The notes beneath the pieces were generated by a model. That model searched no databases and was not told the origin of the DNA. It saw only the letters and a program-made list of their open reading frames with translations. Positions 18,972-32,215 of a DNA stretch of 32,306 nt are shown one piece after another; positions within the stretch are counted from its first letter, which is position 1; every line of letters starts with the position of its first letter. A program made the translations under genes and the position numbers. The stretch is from Alphaproteobacteria bacterium (lineage in GTDB: Bacteria > Pseudomonadota > Alphaproteobacteria > UBA9219), in the NCBI GenBank assembly GCA_028708035.1, contig JAQVZU010000015.1, positions 1 to 32,306 of the forward strand. The letters are read 5' to 3'.

Positions 18972-20084
18972 ATGCCATCCAGTTTGAGCCAAGCCGATGT
19001 TGATCGGCTACTTCAAGAAAAGTCTGCTGCCGTTCGAGCCGAATTAGCAGGCAAATTAGGCATAGAGATAGACAATCCCGAACTGAACCAAAACGAGGCT
19101 GCGCTGGCGCAAGACATCGTGCGCATTATGGCGAAGGATGTCGAGGAAAGCGTTCGCGTGGCGCTGGCACAAAATTTACGCACCGCCGAGCATTTACCGC
19201 ATGACGTTGCGATAAAGCTTGCCAACGATATCGAAAGCGTCGCGCTGCCGATTCTAGAAAGCTCACAGGTTCTGACAGACGACGACTTGGTGAACATCGT
19301 CCGAAAAGGCATTCCTTCCAAACAGGAAATAGTTGCTGGACGCGTGAACGTATCTGAAAAAGTCGCTGACGCGCTCGTGGATAAAGGCGGCGAAAAGGTT
19401 GTCGCGAAGCTGATGGACAATGCGACCGCGAATATCAGCGAAAAAAGCCTGAGCAAAGCCGTCGAGCGCTTTGAGAAAAGCGATGTAGTAAAAGAAAAGA
19501 TAGTGAAGCGCCCCACTCTTCCGCCAGCAATAACGGAGCGCCTCGTAACGCTCGTCGCCGACAACATGCGGGAATATTTGGTGTCGCATCATCAGGTTTC
19601 TCCGTCCATTGCCGCCGACATCGTAATGCAGAGCCGCGAACGCGCTGTGGTCGGTCTGACGGGCAAATCGACGATCGAAGAGCTTGAAAAAATGATCGTT
19701 CAGATGAGCAAAAACGGACGACTTACTCCGTCGCTGATCATACGCGCATTATGTATGGGAGACATTACGTTTTTTGAAATCTCCATCGCTGTCCTGGCCA
19801 ATATTCCGCTTATCAACGCCAGAATCCTTGTTCATGACGCGGGACAACTTGGCCTCAAGTCACTGTACGAACGCGCGGGCCTTCCGGCGGACCTCCTCTT
19901 CGTTGTCCGCGCCGCTGTCGACGTGCTCAACGAGATCTCGATGGATGGGGGCGCAAATGATCGGGAACGGTACCGCGCACGGGCAATTGAGCGCATTTTG
20001 ACAAAGTGTGAAAACATGGACGGCGAAAACGTCGACTACCTTCTTCGAAAGCTCGGCGATATCCTGGATATTTCAAAGCGATAA
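18972..20084 (+). CDS. DUF2336-domain protein
   Basis: Soluble, all-helical protein of the DUF2336 family, 370 aa, characteristic of alphaproteobacteria and of unknown biochemical role. The N-terminal half has HEAT-like repeated helices: 'SVRVALAQNLRTAEHLPHDVA', 'VALPILESSQVLTDDDLVNIV' and 'KVADALVDKGGEKVVAKLM'. The C-terminal half is the conserved DUF2336 core. The first 15 residues, SLSQADVDRLLQEK, resemble the CheY-binding peptides of FliM and CheZ (compare the CheZ tail SQDDIDKLL encoded 1.9 kb away). The start is the ATG at 18972. The ribosome-binding site is poor. It is divergent from apt and monocistronic as far as can be seen. Confidence 0.8.
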   Translation: MPSSLSQADVDRLLQEKSAAVRAELAGKLGIEIDNPELNQNEAALAQDIVRIMAKDVEESVRVALAQNLRTAEHLPHDVAIKLANDIESVALPILESSQVLTDDDLVNIVRKGIPSKQEIVAGRVNVSEKVADALVDKGGEKVVAKLMDNATANISEKSLSKAVERFEKSDVVKEKIVKRPTLPPAITERLVTLVADNMREYLVSHHQVSPSIAADIVMQSRERAVVGLTGKSTIEELEKMIVQMSKNGRLTPSLIIRALCMGDITFFEISIAVLANIPLINARILVHDAGQLGLKSLYERAGLPADLLFVVRAAVDVLNEISMDGGANDRERYRARAIERILTKCENMDGENVDYLLRKLGDILDISKR

Positions 20085-20251: not shown

Positions 20252-21766
20252 ATGAAATCGATCAAGACCATTGTTGTCCAAGCTGGCGGCTTGGGTTCCC
20301 GAATGGAAACGCTTACAAAAAACAAGCCAAAAGCCCTTGTTCCTGTAAAAAACAAGCCCATTTTATTTCATCTTTTTGGCCATTTTCCCGAGGCTCATTA
20401 CAAAATTATAGCCGATTACAAAGGCGACGTTTTGGAAAGGTATTTGAAAACCTTTTCCGACGTCAATTTCGAGATCGTTCGCACAACGGAAAAAGGGACG
20501 AGTTCGGGACTTGGCGCCGCCGTTCAAGGCTTAGGCGATGACGAACCATTTATGGTCATCTGGTGCGATCTTATTCTACCGAAAGACTTTATCCTGCCCG
20601 AACCGACTCAAAATTACATAGGAATATCCAAGAGTTTTCAATGCCGCTGGTCTTATATAAATGGGGACATCGTTCAAACGCCTTCAGCTGATGACGGAAT
20701 TGCCGGATTGTTTATCTTTAAGAACAAAAGCCAGCTTTCCGGATTGCCTTCCTCCGGCGAGTTGGTCAAATGGCTGTCATCGAGACCTTTGAACTTTGAA
20801 AGGCTAGACCTGACGGGAGGAACCGAAGTCGGGACTCTGCTGGCGTATCAGGAGACCCAAGAGAAACAGCCCAAATGCCGCCCCTTCAACGCAATGTCTT
20901 TCGAAGCGGACAGGATTGTCAAAAGGCCCATTACTGCGCAAGGCGAGGAACTTTCAGTCAAGGAAAAGAACTGGTACAGATTCGCAACGGAAAAAAAGTA
21001 TCCACATATTCCGCAGATCTATGCTTATGAGCCATTGACGATAGAAAAAATACACGGAAAGAATATTTTTGAATACGATTTGTTAAACTTGGACCAGAAG
21101 AAGACGGTTCTTTCAAAGATAATCGGTCATATTCAAAAGCTTCATAATCTGACGAAATCTCAACCAGCCTCTGCGCCCGATTGCATTGAAGTCTACTATA
21201 CGAAAACTTTTGCCCGCCTTGAAAAGGTGGTAGAACTCGTTCCCTTCGCCAAAGACGAATTCATCCGCATCAATGGGCACTTTTATAAAAACCCCTTCTT
21301 TATGAAAGATGCGATCAGGAAGGCGGTCGAGGGCATTTTGCCGGACCTTTTCCATGTAATCCACGGGGATACGACTTTTTCGAACATTATGTTGAAGCAA
21401 AACGAAATTGATCCTGTCCTGATTGATCCGAGAGGGCGTTTTGGCTCATCCGATGTATATGGCGACAGGGATTATGATTTTGCCAAGCTTTATTATTCTA
21501 TCGTTGGCAATTACGACCAGTTCAATATGAAGCAGTTCTCTCTGGATATTTTTGATCGCTCGGTTTTGATCGATATAAGGTCAAGCGGCTGGGAAAATTT
21601 GGAAGAATTTTTCTTTAATTCCGTCCCGTCGCAAAAAAACAAAATCTTGCTGTTACATGCTTTGATATGGCTGTCTTTGACCACTTATGCGTGGGAAGAT
21701 TACGATTCAATCTGCGCGGCTTTTTACAAGGGCGTTTTGGAACTGGACAAAGCCATTTTCCCGTAA
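20252..21766 (+). CDS. Nucleotidyltransferase-kinase fusion for surface-glycan decoration
   Basis: Two-domain protein, 504 aa. The N-terminal domain (about 1-200) is a sugar- or alditol-phosphate nucleotidyltransferase: 'VVQAGGLGSRM' (8-18), 'KPKALVPV' and the metal aspartate in 'VIWCDLIL'. The C-terminal domain (about 215-500) is a kinase of the aminoglycoside/choline-kinase (APH) fold, with the catalytic loop HGDTTFSN from H371-G-D373, then 'VLIDPRGRFG' as the metal motif and 'DYDFAKLYYS'. The logic matches separate LicC and LicA proteins: phosphorylate a small alcohol, then activate it with CTP or another NTP. The substrate is unknown. It heads a three-gene cluster with a HAD phosphatase and a GT-B-like protein. 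Confidence 0.8.
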   Translation: MKSIKTIVVQAGGLGSRMETLTKNKPKALVPVKNKPILFHLFGHFPEAHYKIIADYKGDVLERYLKTFSDVNFEIVRTTEKGTSSGLGAAVQGLGDDEPFMVIWCDLILPKDFILPEPTQNYIGISKSFQCRWSYINGDIVQTPSADDGIAGLFIFKNKSQLSGLPSSGELVKWLSSRPLNFERLDLTGGTEVGTLLAYQETQEKQPKCRPFNAMSFEADRIVKRPITAQGEELSVKEKNWYRFATEKKYPHIPQIYAYEPLTIEKIHGKNIFEYDLLNLDQKKTVLSKIIGHIQKLHNLTKSQPASAPDCIEVYYTKTFARLEKVVELVPFAKDEFIRINGHFYKNPFFMKDAIRKAVEGILPDLFHVIHGDTTFSNIMLKQNEIDPVLIDPRGRFGSSDVYGDRDYDFAKLYYSIVGNYDQFNMKQFSLDIFDRSVLIDIRSSGWENLEEFFFNSVPSQKNKILLLHALIWLSLTTYAWEDYDSICAAFYKGVLELDKAIFP

Positions 21767-21777
21767 AGGACCTTTTG

Positions 21778-22143
21778 ATGAATGAATTTTCTTCGCTGCC
21801 CAAAACCTGGATTTTTGATCTCGACGGCACGCTGGTCAAACATAACGGCTATCTAAACGGAGGCGATGTTCTTCTGGAGGGCGTTCGGGAATTTTTTGAA
21901 ACGCTTCCGCCCGACGACAAGGTGGTTATCATAACGGCGCGCACGGAAACCTATAAAGAGCAAACCCTGTTATTTTTAAAGGAAAACAGCATCCGGTTTA
22001 ACGACATTCTTTTTGACTATCCGACCGGCGAGCGCATATTGGTGAACGATAACAAGCCATCGGGACTGAAAATGGCATACGCCTTCAATCTGGGAAGAGA
22101 CGCCGGTTTGGCTTTGAAGTTTACATTAAACGAGGCCCTCTAA
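21778..22143 (+). CDS. Small HAD-superfamily phosphatase of the glycan cluster
   Basis: HAD-like hydrolase without a cap domain, 121 aa. Motif I is 'WIFDLDGTLV' with nucleophile D14 and acid D16. Motif II is 'VVIITARTETYKEQT', and the late acidic motif is 'ILVNDNKPSGLKMAYAFNL'. The ATG at 21778 follows AAAGGACC. An upstream start in the same frame would run inside the preceding gene. Small HAD proteins of this kind accompany nucleotidyltransferase-kinase genes in capsule loci and probably dephosphorylate a pathway intermediate. Its stop overlaps the next start by 1 bp (TAATG). Confidence 0.78.
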   Translation: MNEFSSLPKTWIFDLDGTLVKHNGYLNGGDVLLEGVREFFETLPPDDKVVIITARTETYKEQTLLFLKENSIRFNDILFDYPTGERILVNDNKPSGLKMAYAFNLGRDAGLALKFTLNEAL

Positions 22144-23072
22144 TGCCTTTAAGCGCGAACTTGTTGAAAGTAACGCTGGACAACGGCTTCGTTCGCGCGC
22201 TGAGCGCGCTTTTCTTTTTCAACCGGACAATACGCCATAAAATTCGAGGGCTGACGTTTTTATGGATTAAAGAAAAATATAAAGATTACACGATTCTGCA
22301 TCCCCCTCAGGGCCAAGGAGAGATATTTCTGTTTTCCGCCCTATTCTGGCATGTAAAGAAAGAGAAGCCTTATGCCTTCATTGCAAAAGGCAACTCCCAT
22401 GCCAAAGTCGCTAAGCTTTTCGGCGAGCTTTATGACGTTATCGAAATCGTTCCCCGCTTTCATGACAAGTATTTGCGCATCTCAATGCCTTTGGAGATTT
22501 ATTGCGATGGCGACATAAAAAAGAAAAATGAAAACATGCGGACATGTCTAGCGAGGCGCCTTGGCTTGCCTCCGGAAACGCCCCTTTATATTCCGCAGAT
22601 CGACGTTTCCGATAAAACGCGACGGTACTTCGCAGAAAAAGGTTTTATCGAAGGCAAAACGGTTATTATCTCTCCGCTCGCGCAATCCTATCTTTATGAA
22701 GGGCAGGCTTCCGACTGGATCGACTATGCCAAGCTTATGGTCGCGTTAGGCTATAAAGTTGTTTTCAATTCTCCCGAAGACAATATCGGCGGTTATCCGA
22801 CAATTTTTCTGCCCATCAGAGAGATGATCGAATTCACAAAACTCGCGGGCAATCTGCTGGCGTTCCGGAGTGGTTTGTGTGATGTTTTATGCGCGACGGC
22901 CCGCCCGCGTTCTTTTATTGTTTATCCGACCGACAAACATGAGCATGAACGGATTAACCCTTTGATCAAACGGTACAACATCAAGGATATTTTCGGTTTG
23001 GAGGATATCAAGGAGATCGTTTACGGTTCCCCCATGTATGAAGCAATCCGCGACCACTTCATGCAAAAGTGA
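22143..23072 (+). CDS. Putative GT-B-fold glycosyltransferase-like protein
   Basis: Protein of 309 aa that I cannot assign to a named family. The layout suggests two Rossmann-like halves. The N-terminal half has 'YTILHPPQGQGEIFLFSALFW'. The C-terminal half has 'TVIISPLAQSYLYE', then 'WIDYAKLMVALGYKVVFNSP' and 'LLAFRSGLCDVLCATARPR', which resembles the donor-site 'RSGLCD' region of heptosyltransferase- and fucosyltransferase-like GT-B enzymes. There is no signal peptide. It is translationally coupled to the HAD gene, so it may transfer the activated group made by the upstream enzymes. A 34-bp gap separates it from ubiT. Confidence 0.55.
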   Translation: MPLSANLLKVTLDNGFVRALSALFFFNRTIRHKIRGLTFLWIKEKYKDYTILHPPQGQGEIFLFSALFWHVKKEKPYAFIAKGNSHAKVAKLFGELYDVIEIVPRFHDKYLRISMPLEIYCDGDIKKKNENMRTCLARRLGLPPETPLYIPQIDVSDKTRRYFAEKGFIEGKTVIISPLAQSYLYEGQASDWIDYAKLMVALGYKVVFNSPEDNIGGYPTIFLPIREMIEFTKLAGNLLAFRSGLCDVLCATARPRSFIVYPTDKHEHERINPLIKRYNIKDIFGLEDIKEIVYGSPMYEAIRDHFMQK

Positions 23073-23106: not shown

Positions 23107-23736
23107 ATGCATGGTAATCTATCCAAATTTCCTTTTACGCAGTTCGCAATGCGCGTATTGCCTGCTTCAATTCTCCAGAAAATTGTCGATGCGTTGACGC
23201 ACAGAATGCGCAGCGTCCATCCGCGGCTATTTTCGAACCTTGAGAGGTTGGAAGGAGCCACGGTATTGATCGAACCATGTGATTTACCGCACAGGTTTAT
23301 CCTAACATTTGGCGCAGGTGAGAGTTCGCTTGAGGTCGCACAGGGCGATAGCGAGGACTGTGACGCTACGATCAAAGGGAATCTTAGCGCCCTGCTCGAC
23401 ATGCTTGAGGGCCGGATTGATGGAGATAAGCTGTTTTTCTCGCGCGAATTGGAGATTTCAGGAGATACGGCTGTCGTGGTGGCCTTGCGAAACACTCTCG
23501 ACCGCGAGGAGATCTGCCTGTTAGACGACGTTACATCTCTGCTGGGACCGTTCGCTGATCCGGCGCGGCGAGCCATCGTCCTTGCGGACGCTTTTGCCGA
23601 ACGGATACGAGCGTATCTGGAAGAACGCGCCCAAAAGGCGAACTGCGCATGCGACTCTTTGCGCGAGGAAAACGAGGAGCTAAAAAAGAAGCTTGCCACG
23701 TTTGAAGCTCGCGGAAAGCGCAGGAAGGCATCATGA
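23107..23736 (+). CDS. ubiT: UbiT, SCP2-domain factor of O2-independent ubiquinone synthesis
   Basis: Lipid-binding accessory protein of the anaerobic ubiquinone pathway, 209 aa from the ATG at 23107. The SCP2 domain covers about residues 40-140, including 'GDSEDCDATIKGNLSALLDMLEGRIDGDKLFFSRELEISGD'. UbiT is thought to hold hydrophobic quinone intermediates while UbiU-UbiV hydroxylate the ring. Compared with E. coli UbiT (about 174 aa) it has a longer C-terminus, 'LREENEELKKKLATFEARG', that looks like a coiled coil. The frame opens 23 codons earlier inside the preceding gene, but the family start fits 23107. Its TGA overlaps the ubiU ATG (ATGA, 23733-23736). Confidence 0.85.
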   Translation: MHGNLSKFPFTQFAMRVLPASILQKIVDALTHRMRSVHPRLFSNLERLEGATVLIEPCDLPHRFILTFGAGESSLEVAQGDSEDCDATIKGNLSALLDMLEGRIDGDKLFFSRELEISGDTAVVVALRNTLDREEICLLDDVTSLLGPFADPARRAIVLADAFAERIRAYLEERAQKANCACDSLREENEELKKKLATFEARGKRRKAS

Positions 23737-24728
23737 CGGTTTCGTACCTTGAACTGGTTTGCCCGGCAGGGACGCCTGCAGCTTTGCGCGCGGCGATAGA
23801 CGCCGGAGCTGACACCGTTTACTGCGGTTACCGCAATTGCACAAACGCCCGGAACTATCCGGGATTGAACTTCGATCAGGACGAGTTGATTGAAGGCGTG
23901 GAATATGCGCACGCGCGAGGCCGGAAGGTTTTGGTCGCCATCAACACTTTTCCGCGCGCGGGAGACGAAAAACCTTGGCACAAAGCGGTGGATGAAGCTG
24001 CGGAAGCGAAAGCGGACGCCATCATATTAGCCGATATAGGCGTTTTGGATTATGCCACGCGGCACCAGCCACATTTAAGACGGCACTTATCGGTTCAGGC
24101 GTCGGCAGCCAATGCAATGTCGGTTTCATTTTATCGCGACCGGTTTGGCGTCAAGCGCGTTGTGTTGCCTCGTGTGCTATCCATCGAAGACGTGGCAGCG
24201 CTGATTGAAAAGACCGGAATGGAAACAGAAGTCTTTGCGTTTGGGAGCGTAGGGCCTATGTCGGAAGGGCGTTGTTTTCTGTCGTCCTATATGACAGGTC
24301 TTTCGCCGACAAGCGAAGGCGTTTGCGCCCCTGCAAGCCACGTGGCCTATAAGGAAGAAGGCGGATGCATGAAATCATGCCTCGGCTGCGTAACTCTGAA
24401 CCAGTTCGAGAAGGACGAGCCCGCACCCTACCCCACCCCATGCAAGGGCAGGTATATAACTCATGGCGAAGCGCGGTATTTGTTCGAGGAACCTATCGGA
24501 CTCAACGCTATTGATCTTCTACCGCAATTAAAAGCGGCGGGCGTGACGGCTCTCAAGATCGAAGGACGGCAGCGCAGCCGGGCTTATGTGGCCGAGGTTG
24601 TAGGAACTTTCAGAAAAGCGCTCGACGCATTGGCTATGGGAAGCTCAAAATCGTTTGCGAACGACCTGAAGAATGTCGCCGAAGGCGGTCGAGAGACGTT
24701 CGGCGCATATAAAAAGGGATGGAGATGA
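23733..24728 (+). CDS. ubiU: UbiU, U32-family Fe-S subunit of the O2-independent hydroxylase
   Basis: U32-peptidase-like Fe-S protein, 331 aa, that with UbiV hydroxylates ubiquinone precursors without O2. 'ELVCPAGTPAALRAAIDAGAD', 'GLNFD', 'VLVAINTFPR', 'HLSVQASAAN' and 'VKRVVLPRVLS' follow the UbiU pattern. E. coli UbiU binds 4Fe-4S through C169, C176, C193 and C232. By spacing, C181, C198 and C237 here match the last three. The first is glycine (G174 in 'FGSVGPMSEGRC', where E. coli has a cysteine). Extra cysteines C212, C216 and C219 form CX3CX2C. The gene overlaps ubiT by 4 bp and ubiV by 4 bp at the likely start. Confidence 0.88.
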   Translation: MTVSYLELVCPAGTPAALRAAIDAGADTVYCGYRNCTNARNYPGLNFDQDELIEGVEYAHARGRKVLVAINTFPRAGDEKPWHKAVDEAAEAKADAIILADIGVLDYATRHQPHLRRHLSVQASAANAMSVSFYRDRFGVKRVVLPRVLSIEDVAALIEKTGMETEVFAFGSVGPMSEGRCFLSSYMTGLSPTSEGVCAPASHVAYKEEGGCMKSCLGCVTLNQFEKDEPAPYPTPCKGRYITHGEARYLFEEPIGLNAIDLLPQLKAAGVTALKIEGRQRSRAYVAEVVGTFRKALDALAMGSSKSFANDLKNVAEGGRETFGAYKKGWR

Positions 24729-25693
24729 GGCAAGCTTCTGGAAAAAATGTGGTTGTGGCAAGAAGCAAACTGACTCTCGGCCCGCTGTTTTTCAATTGGC
24801 CCACTGAAAAGCGACTGGACTTTTATTCTCGCATTGCGGACGAGGCCGAAGTGGATGTCGTTTATCTCGGTGAAGTCGTTTGCTCAAAGCGAGAAGTATT
24901 TTTCGAAGAGCATTTGCCGAAAGTCGCGGAACGCCTGAGAAAAAGCGGAAAGGAAGTTGTTCTTTCCACGCTGGCGCTAGTGACATCGGAACGAGAGATG
25001 AAGGCGATATCGGATCGCGTGGAGAACGGGTTTTTAATTGAGGCCAACGATGTCGCCTGCCTGCAGGCCCTTAATGGAAAACCGCACGTTATCGGGCCTT
25101 TTATCAACGTCTTTAACGAAAGCGCACGCAACGTTTTCGTTAGCAATAAAGCCAAGCGGATTGTGCTGCCTGTAGAGGTTCCAGAAACTTCGATCAGCAT
25201 TCTCGCAAACACCAAGAAGGTTGAAACCGAGGTTTTGGTTTTCGGCAGGCAACCGTTGTCGGTAGCCATGCGCTGTTATCATGCGCGAGCGAACGGACTT
25301 AACAAGGACGGATGCAGAATTGTTTGCGGGCGCGATCCAGACGGGCTCGAAACAGACACGATGGACGGACAGCCGATACTGACGGTCAACGGCACGCAGA
25401 CTCTATCATATGGTTACGGCGTATTACTGAACGAACTTCATGCACTGAAGGAAATGGGCGTTTCGCACTTCCGGCTTTCCCCGCAAGATGTAGACATGGC
25501 TGCGGTGGCTAAAGTGTACCGTGAAACGCTGGATAAAAAGATTGAAGCCGACGAAGGCATGGCAAAGCTGAAGAAACTGACCGGGAAGGTTCCCTACATC
25601 AACGGGTTCTACTACGGACGCGAGGGGCTGAGCTGGGTTGAACAAAAGAAATCTAAAACCAATAATAAAATATCGACGCGGAGGAAAAAATGA
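24725..25693 (+). CDS. ubiV: UbiV, U32-family partner of UbiU
   Basis: Second Fe-S subunit of the UbiU-UbiV heterodimer, 322 aa from the ATG at 24725. The start at 24719 leaves no spacing after GGG, whereas 24725 has AAGGG 6 nt upstream and forms an ATGA overlap with the ubiU stop. The cluster ligands are all present. C184, C197 and C201 have the same spacings (13 and 4) as C180, C193 and C197 of E. coli UbiV, and C53 in 'LGEVVCSKR' matches C39. 'LTLGPLFFNWP' and 'HFRLSPQD' are family segments. Its stop overlaps the dapB start (ATGA, 25690-25693). Confidence 0.9.
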   Translation: MRQASGKNVVVARSKLTLGPLFFNWPTEKRLDFYSRIADEAEVDVVYLGEVVCSKREVFFEEHLPKVAERLRKSGKEVVLSTLALVTSEREMKAISDRVENGFLIEANDVACLQALNGKPHVIGPFINVFNESARNVFVSNKAKRIVLPVEVPETSISILANTKKVETEVLVFGRQPLSVAMRCYHARANGLNKDGCRIVCGRDPDGLETDTMDGQPILTVNGTQTLSYGYGVLLNELHALKEMGVSHFRLSPQDVDMAAVAKVYRETLDKKIEADEGMAKLKKLTGKVPYINGFYYGREGLSWVEQKKSKTNNKISTRRKK

Positions 25694-27037: not shown

Positions 27038-28039
27038 TTATTTGTTTAAATATACTTTTTTATCGGCTGACCGCGCCACCGCCTCGTCAAACCCAATCTT
27101 TCCCACGATCCCGCTATGCGCACGGATCTTTTCGGCACTGTGGCCGCACGTTCTTCCAAAAATCCTGACAATAAGCCTGTGAAGCAGAGGCTCGCGTGCG
27201 CACCCCAGTGCCCTATGGATTATCTCAAATGTCTTTGCCGCGCCCTCGGCTAGCGCAAACGGCAAATTGACGACAATCCCATGCCCGCCGATTTCAGAGC
27301 GGAGCTTCCCCAAAAACTCCCGCCATGTCACATCATATGCGTCACGTACATTGTAGGTTTCCCCTTGCGCCTTTTCGCTTTGGGCACCCCAAAGCATATA
27401 GTCCATAAGGGTATCGATATAGGTGAACCCGGCGTTGGCTCTGCCGCCGTCCACATTCAGCATAAGCCCGGACCGAAGCTCCTTTCCAACCCTCTCGATA
27501 AACTGCGAGCCCGGCCCAATGATGTTTCCCGGTCTCAGAATGGTAAACGGGATTCCGTAAGCTTGAGACAATTCGCGCAAAACGGCTTCGCCTTTGATCT
27601 TCGTTTCCCCGTATGGAAACCCCGCGCCGTTGAGAGGACTTTCTTCGTCGCAAGGATTGGCCGGAAAACCGTACACATCCATGCTTGATAGATGGACGAA
27701 CCTTCCGATTGCTCCGTTCCGCCTTGACACCGCCTCAAGCAGATTCCGCAAACCCTTGACATTAGCCATCTCATAAGCTTCAAGCGGCCCCCATGTCGCA
27801 ACATTGGCGGCACAGTGGAAAACCACCTGCCGCGACGCAACCGCGCATTCAAGAACATCCGGATTATTGAGATCGCCGACGATGACCTCGCAAGCGCTTC
27901 GCAAATTATCCTCGAGCCGCTTAACATTGCGAACCAAAAGCCTTACGTCCCACCCCTCGGTCAGGAGCCGCCTCGCCAAATGAGCGCCCACAAATCCGGT
28001 CGCACCGGTTACCAGCGCGGATCTGGGCGCAGAGATCAT
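27038..28039 (-). CDS. NAD(P)-dependent epimerase/dehydratase (extended SDR)
   Basis: Extended short-chain dehydrogenase, 333 aa. The dinucleotide motif is 'TGATGFVGAH' (GxxGxxG, residues 12-18). 'HCAANVATWG' and 'HLSSMDVYG' follow, and the catalytic pair is Y143 and K147 in 'PYGETKIKGE'. Its likely substrates are nucleotide sugars, though 3-beta-hydroxysteroid-dehydrogenase-like members look similar. As the last gene of a unit with kpsC and kpsS and a 4-bp overlap with the transferase gene before it (28036-28039), it most likely makes or modifies a capsule sugar precursor. The exact reaction cannot be read from the sequence. Confidence 0.8.
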   Translation of the reverse strand: MISAPRSALVTGATGFVGAHLARRLLTEGWDVRLLVRNVKRLEDNLRSACEVIVGDLNNPDVLECAVASRQVVFHCAANVATWGPLEAYEMANVKGLRNLLEAVSRRNGAIGRFVHLSSMDVYGFPANPCDEESPLNGAGFPYGETKIKGEAVLRELSQAYGIPFTILRPGNIIGPGSQFIERVGKELRSGLMLNVDGGRANAGFTYIDTLMDYMLWGAQSEKAQGETYNVRDAYDVTWREFLGKLRSEIGGHGIVVNLPFALAEGAAKTFEIIHRALGCAREPLLHRLIVRIFGRTCGHSAEKIRAHSGIVGKIGFDEAVARSADKKVYLNK

Positions 28040-29178
28040 CGCTCAATCCTTTCCCGCGATTTAAAGACATTCTTGTTCTCGATCTTCGGCGGCCTGTTCA
28101 AAATCGAATATCCAAAGCCCACAAAGAAGTTGATAAAACGGCTTCGCGCACGCAATGCCATCTTCATCGGCATGAGCTGCGCCCCCATATCCGTCTTAAT
28201 GGGATACGTCGTCAGCCCCATCTCAAGCTGTTTCACTCCAAGCCCGATCGCTGTCTTAATTACCGCTTGCGCAACGTAAAGATAAAGGCTGTCGTTTTGC
28301 GCCGCCTCGCGCCCGAAGTAGAGCCACCTGAGCGTTTCTCCATCCAGCATCAGAAGAGCATGCCCGACAAGCCGTTCGCTGCTATAAAAGTAAATTGCCT
28401 TCGAGGCCGCGCCCATCTGCCGCGAAAATTGCCGGTAGAACTCAGGCGTCAGCTTTTCGCGCTGGAATTCGGCGGCATGATTATAGACCGTCATCCACTG
28501 AGCGCATAATAGTTCGGCCTTGTCGTCGAAGTTTTCCACAACTTCATGCCGCATCTGCGCCAACTCGTTTCTCTTCATGTGCTTGAGAACCTTGCTCCGA
28601 TAATAACTTTTCATCGAAGCAAGGTAATCGTCCGCGGTCCTCCACCGAATGCCAAGATAGGTGTTGGGCAACCCATGAACAAGATGATACCCCCGCGCGC
28701 GGAAATGCGAGCAATAACCCTCGGCGTTCGTCTCGAAGTCCCGCACGACGATCAAAAAATGCCCCTCCGCCTGTGCGAGGCCAAGCAAAAGCTTGTCCAG
28801 GGCTTCAACGGCATCCTCAAGAGAAACATCCTTACGCATAATAAAAGGCGGACTTGTCAACGTCATGGGCGTTCCGCACTCAAGCATGCGGATTTTCAGG
28901 AAGCTTGGAAACAACCGCCTGACAAGCGCCAAAGCCTTTCTCAAAAACGCGGGCGCGAAGATCGCAATGTCGGTGGTGACGGTGTAAAATGCCGCAAGCG
29001 CCGCCGGTTTTCCGCTTTCGTCCCTGAAGATCGCATACCGGTACTTGAAGTCGTTCAATCCCGATTTCTCGACGACCGCCCAAAAATCCCGGCTTTGCGT
29101 TCGTGAAAACTGCGAGGCAAGCGCATCCCAGTCCGCTTTCGGCACTTGGGCGATTTCGTTGTAGACTTCGGCTTTCAT
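28036..29178 (-). CDS. FemAB/GNAT-like acyltransferase of the capsule operon
   Basis: Transferase of 380 aa with the duplicated GNAT layout of FemAB and CelD-like (BioF2-like) proteins. The N-terminal half ends near 'LIVVRDFETNAEGYCSHFRARGYHLVHGLPNTYLGIRW'. The C-terminal half holds 'SSERLVGHALLMLDGETLRWLYFGRE', then 'DSLYLYVAQAVIKTAIGLGVKQLEMG', typical of the acyl-CoA or aminoacyl-tRNA-binding fold. It has no signal peptide. Four-base ATGA overlaps on both sides (kpsS 29175-29178, epimerase 28036-28039) bind it tightly to the capsule genes, so N-acylation of a capsule sugar is the best guess. The donor is unknown. Confidence 0.65.
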   Translation of the reverse strand: MKAEVYNEIAQVPKADWDALASQFSRTQSRDFWAVVEKSGLNDFKYRYAIFRDESGKPAALAAFYTVTTDIAIFAPAFLRKALALVRRLFPSFLKIRMLECGTPMTLTSPPFIMRKDVSLEDAVEALDKLLLGLAQAEGHFLIVVRDFETNAEGYCSHFRARGYHLVHGLPNTYLGIRWRTADDYLASMKSYYRSKVLKHMKRNELAQMRHEVVENFDDKAELLCAQWMTVYNHAAEFQREKLTPEFYRQFSRQMGAASKAIYFYSSERLVGHALLMLDGETLRWLYFGREAAQNDSLYLYVAQAVIKTAIGLGVKQLEMGLTTYPIKTDMGAQLMPMKMALRARSRFINFFVGFGYSILNRPPKIENKNVFKSRERIER

Positions 29179-30401
29179 TGCCTCTTGATTTCCCCGACAT
29201 TGCCTTCAAATAGGCGGTCGGCGGCAGCTTTGACCGCTACGCTTCTTCCCGGCTCGCTGAAAAACACGCCGCGAATCTGGATCGTTGCCGCCAATACATT
29301 AATGAAGGCATCGACATCCACTGCCTTCGGAGCTTTGGCATCGCGCCAAAAAGCATCCAGGTCTCCGCGGTATGTAAGCCCCTCGATATCATAGACCGCC
29401 TGCCCCAATACCTTGACGGGAACGCCGAGTTGCAGCGCCTTGACGCCGGAAGTGCTGTTAACGGTCACCATGCCGCACGCCCCCGCCGTAATTTTGTCGA
29501 GATTTCCTCCGTCAACGAATACCACGCGGTCCCCAAGATTGCTGTCCAGAGCTGCGCGCGCGACGCATCTTTCCCAGTTCGTAATCCAAGGGTCCAATGG
29601 ATGAGACTTTACAATCAACCGGGTCGTCTTCTCCGAATGCTCGGCGAACGACCGGATAACCTTTCGGATCGGCTCTTCCATCCCGTTAAAAGAAGAATAG
29701 GCAACGATCTGAAAATCGTGTTCAAGCTGAAGCGGGAACACGAAATACTTTTCCTTGCTGTTCAAAATCGGCTCAAGCTTCCGTTGCGCTTGAAAATCCC
29801 GTGCCTCAGTCGATTGTATGCGCAACCCCATCGCTGGAAAATAATAGAACGGATTGGGCCTCTTGTCCGGCCTTCTGTATCCCGGCCAAAACGGCGCAAA
29901 TAAGACGTTACCGAAACTGTAGATCAAATCTCCTATCGCCATCGCCCAGAAACTGTCCGAATAGCGCTTGACGGAGTCCACCGCCGGAAGCCCTTCAGCC
30001 AGTTTCCGTATCGTTGCCATGTCTTTCGGAAAACTTGAATTCCCGCTCATCCCGTTGCGCTCGAGCGTGATCCAATCCGGTCTCAGGTGACCAAAATCCG
30101 TAACCGTAACCCTTATATTCCGTCGCTTCGCCTCTTCGATGGCCGCTTTGTGGTAAAACCTTTGCTCTCCGAGGAGCACAAGATCAGTCACCTGTTCCTT
30201 ATCGAAAAAAGCCCCGATAAATTGGGACCAGCGCGCAACGGAGCCGCGATAGTTGACGGCGTTCTTCCCCTTCCAAAAAAACCAGTCTCCGAAACAAAGA
30301 TTCACCCCTGTCACTCGGCACCCGCGCGCCGAAAGATCCTTGCCGATTTGGCTGAAAAAAGAGCAAGGCATTCCCTGAAGGAAAACGAAGTGATGGCTCA
30401 T
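29175..30401 (-). CDS. kpsS: Capsule polysaccharide linker transferase KpsS
   Basis: KpsS adds the first Kdo of the poly-Kdo linker to a lysophosphatidylglycerol anchor in ABC-exported capsules, 408 aa, acting at the cytoplasmic face. 'HHFVFLQGMPCSFFSQIGKDLSARGCRVTGVNLCFGDWFFW' at the start is strongly KpsS-like. 'DLVLLGEQRFYHKAAIEEAKRRNI' and 'VTVNSTSGVKALQLGVPVKVLG' in the donor site follow. The ATG at 30401-30399 has AGGA 6 nt upstream. A start at 30512 would run into kpsC and lacks support. It follows kpsC after 8 bp and overlaps the next gene by 4 bp. Confidence 0.88.
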   Translation of the reverse strand: MSHHFVFLQGMPCSFFSQIGKDLSARGCRVTGVNLCFGDWFFWKGKNAVNYRGSVARWSQFIGAFFDKEQVTDLVLLGEQRFYHKAAIEEAKRRNIRVTVTDFGHLRPDWITLERNGMSGNSSFPKDMATIRKLAEGLPAVDSVKRYSDSFWAMAIGDLIYSFGNVLFAPFWPGYRRPDKRPNPFYYFPAMGLRIQSTEARDFQAQRKLEPILNSKEKYFVFPLQLEHDFQIVAYSSFNGMEEPIRKVIRSFAEHSEKTTRLIVKSHPLDPWITNWERCVARAALDSNLGDRVVFVDGGNLDKITAGACGMVTVNSTSGVKALQLGVPVKVLGQAVYDIEGLTYRGDLDAFWRDAKAPKAVDVDAFINVLAATIQIRGVFFSEPGRSVAVKAAADRLFEGNVGEIKRQ

Positions 30402-30409
30402 GATGAATC

Positions 30410-32215
30410 CTAATGGACCGGCGAGGAAGACCGGAATACACGAAACGCCCGGAAAGGAAAAGTGAGGCGTCCCTGAAGCCGCCTTATCTTGACCATCAAG
30501 GTCGGTTTCCAAACCTCCTTGTCGTCAAACCGGGAGATCAATGTCTCGGGCCCGCAAGGCAAGTTGGCCAAGGGATCAAAGTAACGCGGAAACAAAATTA
30601 AAGTCCCTGTGACAAGTTCTTCAAGCGTCAGTTTGCGCCCCCGGCGCGGCGGAGGGTTAAGGTCTTTCGTAAGCCCCCATCCCGCATAAAAAGGCTGCCC
30701 ATATGTGACAACCTTCTTCCCGCGCAACAGAGCCTCGAATCCCGCAAGGGAGGTCAAACAATGAACCTCATCCACCGAAGCGATAACCTCAGCCATCGAC
30801 GACGACCGCACGATCCGGTTCGCATACTTAAGGGCCTCGTTGTCGTCGATGAAGCCGTTCCGGTGCCCGGCCTCAATGTCCGGGTGAGGCTTATAGATAA
30901 TGTCGGCCTCCGGAGCCTCCGCGCGCACGCGCTTCAGCAAGTCGAGATTGCCCGCAACGTTTGAACCTCCGAGAACAACCGACCGGTCGTCTTCGACCTG
31001 CCCCGGCACAAGGATGGTCCGGTTTTCTGTTCGAGCGATAGGGGCCATGCCCGACGCCGCATATTTGGTGATGTTTCGGCTTACCAAAAGCTCGATAAGC
31101 CCTTTTGCCCGCAAAACCTGCCTGTCGCTTAAAGCAATCGTGTCGAGAATGCCTTCAAGCCTGCTTGGAATCGAAGGATCAAAATAGAGCCCATCGGGAT
31201 CAAGTGTGATCGATGCCGGAGGGATAAAATCCGCCCCCAGTCCCGCCGAACGGATAAAACCATCCTCGACCCGGTAAACCGGAACATCCGCCGTAAGCGA
31301 CCAAAGCTTAAGGTCCGCTGGCTCTCTAGATGCCCAAACACAGATGCCTTTGCCTCTCTTGGCCGCATAGGCTGCCGCCTTTTTGGCCGAGGACATATAT
31401 TTAGGAACGCCTTCGGCTGTCCGCAAAAAGGTCGAAATGCGATCTTTTTTCCAAAAAGCCATCCCCATGCAAACCGCTATTTTCCTGTTTTCGCGGTCAA
31501 GCCTGTGAAATAGCCGAACTGTCTCCAGAGTCTCCTCGAACGATGCCTCCCGCCCCGTCCAAGGATTGCGATACCGGCTCCCCACCAAGACTTTAGCGGC
31601 AAAGATCTCGGCAAGAGTCCGCGACCCGCGCCGCGGTACCGAACTGCAATCGTCCGTCAGGCCCCATCCCGAATAGAACGCAGGATGATGGCAAACGACC
31701 TGCTTTCCCGCAATCAACGCCAGAAAACCGAAAACATGCCCTGCCACATGAAAACTTGACGCTATCTTGAATAGCGCCCATGGATCGACCTCGCCGCGAA
31801 GAACAGTAGCCCCCGCCTTCCTTAGCCGCGCGATAACGGACGAGCATTCAGGCGCTTCAGAGTCAAGGATAAGCATCTTTCCCGGCATGAAACGCTTCTC
31901 AACATCGAGCAGCATCGACATAACAGCCGCAGCCCCGCCAGCCTTTGATGGCAATGCCACAATCACGGCATCGAATTTTCCCGGCTTGAAACCTTTCGGT
32001 TCCGCCCCCCACCAGCTGCCTCCGAGCCCCTCACCGACAATCGCCCGCATCCCCTCAGCCGCGCGGGCCATAAACCGGCTGCTTTCCCACCCGCGTTCGT
32101 CCAGAAGTTCCTTGGTGCGAAACCTCGGCGGCTCCGGATAAGCCAACAAAGAGCCCTTTCCGTCAAACCATGGCGGCAGTCGTAAAATCTGATTGTCCGA
32201 AAGCTTCTCGTGCAT
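30410..32215 (-). CDS. kpsC: Capsule Kdo transferase KpsC with reduced first domain
   Basis: KpsC extends the Kdo linker with two tandem glycosyltransferase domains of alternating specificity. It has 601 aa here. The second domain (about 245-560) is complete: 'YRVEDGFIRSAGLG' (314-327), 'YKPHPDIEAGH' (441-451), 'LTSLAGFEALLRGKKVVTYGQPFYAGWGL' (487-515). The first (about 80-240) keeps only the donor-side half ending 'GKQVVCHHPAFYSGWGLTDD' (170-189). It has no VEDGFIRS counterpart, and the K-HPD motif is replaced by 'LILDSEAPE' (115-123). Other KpsC proteins are about 680 aa. The frame is uninterrupted. The ribosome-binding site is weak (GAAAGAA). It is first of the visible capsule operon. Confidence 0.88.
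   Translation of the reverse strand: MHEKLSDNQILRLPPWFDGKGSLLAYPEPPRFRTKELLDERGWESSRFMARAAEGMRAIVGEGLGGSWWGAEPKGFKPGKFDAVIVALPSKAGGAAAVMSMLLDVEKRFMPGKMLILDSEAPECSSVIARLRKAGATVLRGEVDPWALFKIASSFHVAGHVFGFLALIAGKQVVCHHPAFYSGWGLTDDCSSVPRRGSRTLAEIFAAKVLVGSRYRNPWTGREASFEETLETVRLFHRLDRENRKIAVCMGMAFWKKDRISTFLRTAEGVPKYMSSAKKAAAYAAKRGKGICVWASREPADLKLWSLTADVPVYRVEDGFIRSAGLGADFIPPASITLDPDGLYFDPSIPSRLEGILDTIALSDRQVLRAKGLIELLVSRNITKYAASGMAPIARTENRTILVPGQVEDDRSVVLGGSNVAGNLDLLKRVRAEAPEADIIYKPHPDIEAGHRNGFIDDNEALKYANRIVRSSSMAEVIASVDEVHCLTSLAGFEALLRGKKVVTYGQPFYAGWGLTKDLNPPPRRGRKLTLEELVTGTLILFPRYFDPLANLPCGPETLISRFDDKEVWKPTLMVKIRRLQGRLTFPFRAFRVFRSSSPVH

Follow-up and report, generated by a model that had tools for sequence, protein, structure and literature searches.

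A nucleotidyltransferase-kinase fusion, a HAD phosphatase and a GT9-like protein in an alphaproteobacterium: a probable module for nucleotide-activated D-arabinose

Several described systems combine a kinase with a nucleotidyltransferase. In the ADP-heptose pathway, GmhB and HldE apply the logic of kinase, HAD phosphatase and nucleotidyltransferase to a sugar phosphate. The isomerase of this pathway is of the GmhA type, the HAD protein acts on a bisphosphate, GT9 transferases work downstream, and HldE is itself a fusion of a PfkB kinase and a nucleotidyltransferase. In the phosphocholine system, LicA and LicC are encoded by separate genes with neither a HAD nor an isomerase, and choline is transferred as a phosphodiester. 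Choline kinases are of the APH type. FKP contains a GHMP-type kinase, uses a free sugar and has no HAD. FKP unites L-fucokinase and GDP-fucose pyrophosphorylase (PMC11982464). In MupP-AmgK-MurU, a kinase, a HAD and a nucleotidyltransferase act on a sugar phosphate (PMC5371407); here the genes are separate, the phosphatase is of the HAD_2 type, and the substrate is MurNAc, which is salvaged.

The DNA of phage RB69 bears arabinose (PMC6024577, PMC13390438). Thomas et al. (2018) proposed that the RB69 protein ORF53_52c and the isomerase ORF055c serve UDP-arabinose synthesis, and pointed out a Butyrivibrio nucleotidyltransferase-kinase-SIS protein (PMC6024577). The link between these phage proteins and arabinose has thus been published previously as speculation. 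A 2026 paper on arabinosylating phages regards the precursor of the arabinose as unclear and describes the pathway as a whole as uncharacterized (PMC13390438). The homologue in Thanatos, TH1_060, is essential, and its activity in vitro was not identified (PMC12838424). In the open literature searched, no demonstrated activity was found for any enzyme of the fusion family, and no account of the HAD step, the bacterial module or the fusion evidence was found; the pathway may be further advanced elsewhere.

The window analyzed here is the whole stretch of 32,306 nucleotides (contig C60, coordinates 1–32306) from an alphaproteobacterial genome of 2.09 Mb, 96% complete; the genes present (DUF2336, CheZ, ubiTUV) and the relatives found also point to an alphaproteobacterium. 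The preliminary description had placed a set of three genes in it, and all three open reading frames are found where it placed them, on one strand (Table 1).

Table 1. Positions of the three-gene module, its domains and the flanking features in the window.
Feature	Position	Strand	Basis or location
DUF2336 protein	18972..20084	+	left-hand flank, outside module
NT-kinase fusion, 504 aa	20252..21766	+	ORF, profile, model, alignment
NTP-transferase domain, residues 1-~207	~20252-20872	+	profile and fold
APH-type kinase domain, residues ~213-504	~20888-21763	+	profile
Capless HAD phosphatase, 121 aa	21778..22143	+	homologue-supported start, motifs
GT9-like GT-B glycosyltransferase, 309 aa	22143..23072	+	predicted fold, neighbourhood
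ubiT	23107..23736	+	right-hand flank, outside module
Capsule-type cluster (SDR, FemAB-like, KpsS-like, KpsC-like)	27038..32215	-	outside module

The N-terminal domain of the fusion matches NTP_transf_3 (E = 1.7e-9), and profiles find the same family in 38 of 38 relatives. The structure model of the fusion has a mean pLDDT of 94. By structure comparison, this domain is of the sugar-1-phosphate/MurU/LicC type, with similarity to LicC (1jyl; Z 21.1, rmsd 2.4, 199 residues aligned), MurU (Z 20.4) and HddC (Z 20.0). The modelled fold does not choose among these three and many other nucleotidyltransferases at Z 19–21. The structure matches listed for the full fusion all fall on the nucleotidyltransferase domain, and the kinase assignment is based on profiles and motifs. 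The APH match is weak in the window protein itself (E = 0.1), and PF01636 is matched by 27 of the 38 relatives. A search of PDB sequences with the kinase-domain profile gave nothing significant. Across 38 diverse homologues, G13, R17, K27, D106, K224, E238, HGD371-373, N378 and D392 are invariant, and the last five of these elements constitute the kinase catalytic set. G12 and G15 vary in one or two of the 38, and residue 192 is either Glu or Asp. Loss of a catalytic residue was looked for in both domains of this alignment, and none was seen. The profiles and the alignment uphold the claim that a nucleotidyltransferase domain and an APH-type kinase domain, both with intact catalytic motifs, share one chain.

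Based on its homologues, the HAD gene starts at ATG 21778, leaving an 11-bp gap after the fusion stop; the mechanical ORF start at 21667 falls within the fusion gene. The motifs DxDGT, T-x-R and ND-x-K are 99–100% conserved among 136 homologues, which agrees with the original assignment of a capless HAD phosphatase. The stop codon of the HAD gene (TAA, 22141–22143) and the start codon of the third gene (ATG, 22143–22145) share 1 bp, and the overlap described earlier is thus confirmed at position 22143.

The third protein had been described as GT-B-like and of an unrecognizable family. The former is correct, and the latter is not, as its structure model (pLDDT 84) and a structure search point to the GT9 fold. 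Structure prediction supports both the nucleotidyltransferase fold in the fusion and the GT-B fold in the third protein. Pfam and NCBIfam give no match for the third protein. The top bacterial structure matches are GT9 heptosyltransferases at Z 15.3–17.4, including WaaF (Z 17.4), a Veillonella GT9 protein (Z 17.2) and WaaC (Z 15.8), while other fold families reach at most about 11.4. The fold test against 1psw gives Z 17.4, rmsd 3.3 and 242 aligned residues. Similarity to WaaC, WaaF and TibC extends over residues 47–309 (Z 13.6–17.4), but the identity is 8–12%. The GT9 family profile PF01075 gives no match to the window protein, and 6 of 24 relatives hit it weakly (best E = 6.9e-6). Because the predicted fold agrees with GT9 heptosyltransferases and PF01075 fails, the protein is called GT9-like, not GT9.

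The logic of the module resembles those of AmgK/MurU/MupP and HldE/GmhB, but it belongs to neither. It shares with AmgK-MurU-MupP the combination of kinase, nucleotidyltransferase and HAD giving an NDP-sugar, a near-identical nucleotidyltransferase fold, and the APH-type kinase superfamily of AmgK. The nucleotidyltransferase domain matches the MurU model at E = 1.7e-7 but fails NF045761, with 31.4 bits against the cut-off of 250. HldE is unlike the window fusion in its PfkB-type kinase, its unrelated nucleotidyltransferase fold (rfaE domain II) and its opposite domain order, and the window genome has a separate HldE. LicA/LicC shares the APH-type kinase and the LicC fold, and FKP shares the presence of kinase and nucleotidyltransferase in one NDP-sugar-producing chain.

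Scanning named genomes with a profile gave 466 relatives of the fusion, and the best 80 of the 466, a non-random sample, were analyzed. Most of these 80 are from gut or animal-associated MAGs of Gastranaerophilales, Alphaproteobacteria, Elusimicrobia, Helicobacter, Clostridia and others, although some of the MAG names seem unreliable. The fusion is also present in 70 viral contigs and in 369 phage records, chiefly of Escherichia, Acinetobacter and Klebsiella phages. The search of the viral collection by sequence with the window fusion alone gave no pattern match. Neighbourhoods were counted with a simple ORF call at 79 bacterial loci (from the best 80 of 466) and in 69 viral contigs. The HAD gene is at position +1 from the fusion in 68 of these 79 bacterial loci, and the GT family is at +2 in 51. 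These frequencies indicate that the triad is not a chance arrangement. The three genes are consecutive in 47 of the 79, which answers the question of recurrence raised by the preliminary description. In viral contigs, a HAD lies within +3 of the fusion in 59 of 69. The triad is conserved as a unit, with the pair of fusion and HAD at its core. Two other relatives, L183 (10255–11487) and L007 (3032–3961), have the fusion and HAD with different GT-like proteins upstream. The transferase therefore varies across relatives while the pair stays constant.

SIS isomerase genes are seen between positions -3 and +5 of the fusion at 16 of the 79 bacterial loci (best 80 of 466) and 28 of the 69 viral loci. 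The other 63 bacterial loci have no SIS in this range, and members of the family may accordingly differ in substrate. The neighbouring SIS proteins match TIGR00393, the arabinose-5-phosphate isomerase family of KdsD, KpsF and GutQ, at E-values from 1e-24 to 1e-94, with gmhA absent or weak. The neighbours in L035 and L086 exceed the TIGR00393 cut-off of 203.7 bits. The CBS-less SIS proteins in L008, L009, L083, L084, L087 and L091 score below it, yet their best match is TIGR00393 or members of KdsD/GutQ. In L087, from a Clostridia genome, nucleotidyltransferase, kinase and SIS form a single chain of 709 aa. In L086, from Helicobacter, a single HAD-SIS-CBS chain of 465 aa immediately follows the nucleotidyltransferase-kinase protein.

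Kdo synthesis, for which a KpsF encoded beside capsule genes could be used, was considered as the sole reason for these SIS genes and rejected, since Clostridia have SIS without KdsA above the cut-off. Among these Clostridia, whose genome completeness is not given, KdsA has no match in the genomes of L083 and L087 and only sub-cut-off matches in those of L084, L085 and L090, like the second matches in two KdsA-bearing genomes. Gram-negative genomes in the same search contain KdsA. GmhA as the usual partner was also rejected, because a true GmhA-like gene is seen in two loci only, at a distance.

In the tree, the window fusion clusters with seven relatives in all, the five from these Clostridia and two from viral contigs, each of which bears SIS, with modest support (0.735). 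The window has no SIS gene beside the triad, so the isomerase must come from elsewhere. One KdsD is encoded on contig C7 (TIGR00393, 310.7 bits, above the cut-off), and the isomerase can be supplied in trans from there.

The window fusion matches phrog_4098 at E = 2.8e-58, with residues 5–501 aligned to 2–501 of the 559 profile positions. This is the family of RB69 ORF53_52c and the Mosigvirus protein P0002. The window HAD matches phrog_1238, to which the Mosigvirus HAD belongs. The order isomerase, fusion, HAD is seen in Mosigvirus, Winklervirus and Jiangsuvirus records, and the HAD gene adjoins the fusion in phage loci L009, L184, L185 and L189, as in the window. The RB69 protein and the window protein are the same full-length fusion with an adjoining HAD, and relatives of the window fusion have a KdsD-like isomerase; the identity to ORF53_52c is 27% over 87% of the window protein. 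The phages put the sugar on 5-hydroxycytosine in DNA, whereas the window has a GT9-like partner, a capsule context and no isomerase gene. As this gene is lacking, what is claimed is a homologue of the phage protein, and not a complete phage-type cassette.

The HAD in many phage records is called "phosphoheptose isomerase" or "hypothetical". Proteins with the former name are found in L009 (7692–8078, SHSML-52-1), phrog_1238, L184 (4150–4758) and L187 (4229–4588). The L009 protein, which was translated, is an EcbF/BcbF-type HAD phosphatase without a cap (TIGR01689, E = 1.6e-13). The name thus looks like a propagated misannotation. In Tenacibaculum phage PTm1 (L188, 4071–4775), a gene annotated as histidine phosphatase directly follows the fusion at the HAD position. 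It is possibly a non-orthologous replacement of HAD, as expected if a dephosphorylation step is required. Many viral contigs with the fusion, such as L123 and L110 in cluster 4, carry an SDR and a further nucleotidyltransferase resembling the HldE C-terminus a few genes off, often with no SIS. The sugar of such loci may be different.

The module very probably makes an NDP-sugar from a sugar phosphate. It is also probable, with less certainty, that the fusion and HAD activate D-arabinose 5-phosphate to NDP-D-arabinose, which the GT9-like protein transfers. This reading is based on gene order, active sites, folds, co-occurrence, the association or fusion with KdsD-family proteins, and phage homology. 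From these we infer phosphorylation at C1, the identity of the sugar and of the nucleotide, the relative timing of HAD and kinase, and the acceptor. The KdsD isomerase of the cell itself would convert ribulose 5-phosphate to D-arabinose 5-phosphate, the most likely aldopentose 5-phosphate, and the kinase domain would phosphorylate it at C1. The HAD would take off the phosphate at C5, in the manner of GmhB from a 1,5-bisphosphate or, in the manner of MupP, ahead of the kinase step. Both orders would pass through a sugar 1-phosphate on the way to an NDP-sugar; starting from arabinose 5-phosphate, the nucleotidyltransferase domain would join arabinose 1-phosphate and a nucleotide into NDP-D-arabinose. 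The GT9-fold glycosyltransferase would move D-arabinose, possibly as furanose, onto a surface glycan, which is plausible as the acceptor. The general scheme first predicted for this locus, in which a kinase and a nucleotidyltransferase activate a substrate that is then transferred, is retained.

The same chemistry could act on another sugar, a heptose or hexose phosphate such as heptose 7-phosphate via the 1,7-bisphosphate, with the GT9-like protein as a heptosyltransferase. The GT9 fold is chiefly associated with ADP-heptose, the capless HAD is analogous to GmhB, the nucleotidyltransferase domain ties with HddC, and HldE and a GmhA-like protein are encoded in the window genome. Nevertheless, this is unlikely, as the isomerases adjacent to the fusion are of the KdsD type, not the GmhA type, and the phage homologues accompany DNA arabinosylation. 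Still less likely is that the HAD acts after transfer, the nucleotidyltransferase producing an NDP-(pentose 5-phosphate) and the glycosyltransferase adding pentose 5-phosphate to a glycan. The HAD domain of Campylobacter Cj1432, which dephosphorylates after ribose 5-phosphate transfer from PRPP, directly exemplifies a HAD whose substrate is a pentose 5-phosphate already attached to a glycan (PMC12096443), and the HAD and GT genes overlap in the window. However, the HAD tracks the fusion and not the transferase, including in cyanophage-type and Straboviridae phages without the GT family.

The preliminary description had compared the module to LicA and LicC, with a small alcohol or polyol as substrate. 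The likeness to LicC stands at the fold level, tied with MurU and HddC, and that to an alcohol-using system does not. No choline-like gene was found next to the fusion, and KdsD/KpsF/GutQ isomerases are adjacent or fused instead. LicA/LicC-like salvage, in which the hydroxyl of a small alcohol or polyol is phosphorylated, cytidylylated and transferred as a phosphodiester, is therefore rejected as the main reading and is very improbable: LicC gives the nearest nucleotidyltransferase fold and choline kinases share the APH type, but this reading leaves unexplained why almost every locus has a HAD, why KdsD-family proteins are partners or fused, and why the transferase has a GT9 fold. The polyol was dropped for arabinose because of the KdsD-type partners and fusions and the homology to phage arabinosylation proteins.

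The three triad genes have a GC content of 0.44–0.47, against 0.50–0.59 for other genes in the window, and the triad is present in 2 of 10 members of the genus. The low GC and the patchy presence suggest horizontal gain, short of proof. Sister genomes carry ubiTUV, and in the sister-genome stretches searched for an empty site, no DUF2336 gene and no triad were found upstream of it. The real start of ubiT is around 23107, not 23038, as the mechanical ORF shows homology only from residue 24 onward. Positions 23107–25693 contain ubiT and two U32-peptidase-family genes, putatively ubiU and ubiV; this set suggests oxygen-independent ubiquinone synthesis and an anaerobic or microaerobic life. The KpsC/KpsS-like genes are 6 kb from the triad, in a cluster whose SDR is an SDR epimerase and whose KpsS-like protein scores well under the equivalog cut-off. 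This capsule-type cluster is a possible user of the activated sugar.

Bacterial loci in which the isomerase, the kinase-nucleotidyltransferase and the HAD are adjacent or fused predict arabinose 5-phosphate as the substrate and the HAD as the missing partner in phages. A further prediction from these loci is that D-arabinose or a close relative is a building block of surface glycans in many gut bacteria. There is a reasonable, if not strong, case for a nucleotide-activated D-arabinose route, from ribulose 5-phosphate via arabinose 5-phosphate and arabinose 1-phosphate to NDP-D-arabinose, that would be apart from the lipid-linked DPA and trypanosomatid GDP-D-Arap routes and would serve surface glycans widely among gut bacteria. 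The homologous genes of phages would provide the donor from which arabinose is added in DNA hypermodification. This gives a strong, testable hint toward the phage arabinose-donor pathway left unsolved in the open papers (PMC13390438, PMC12838424).
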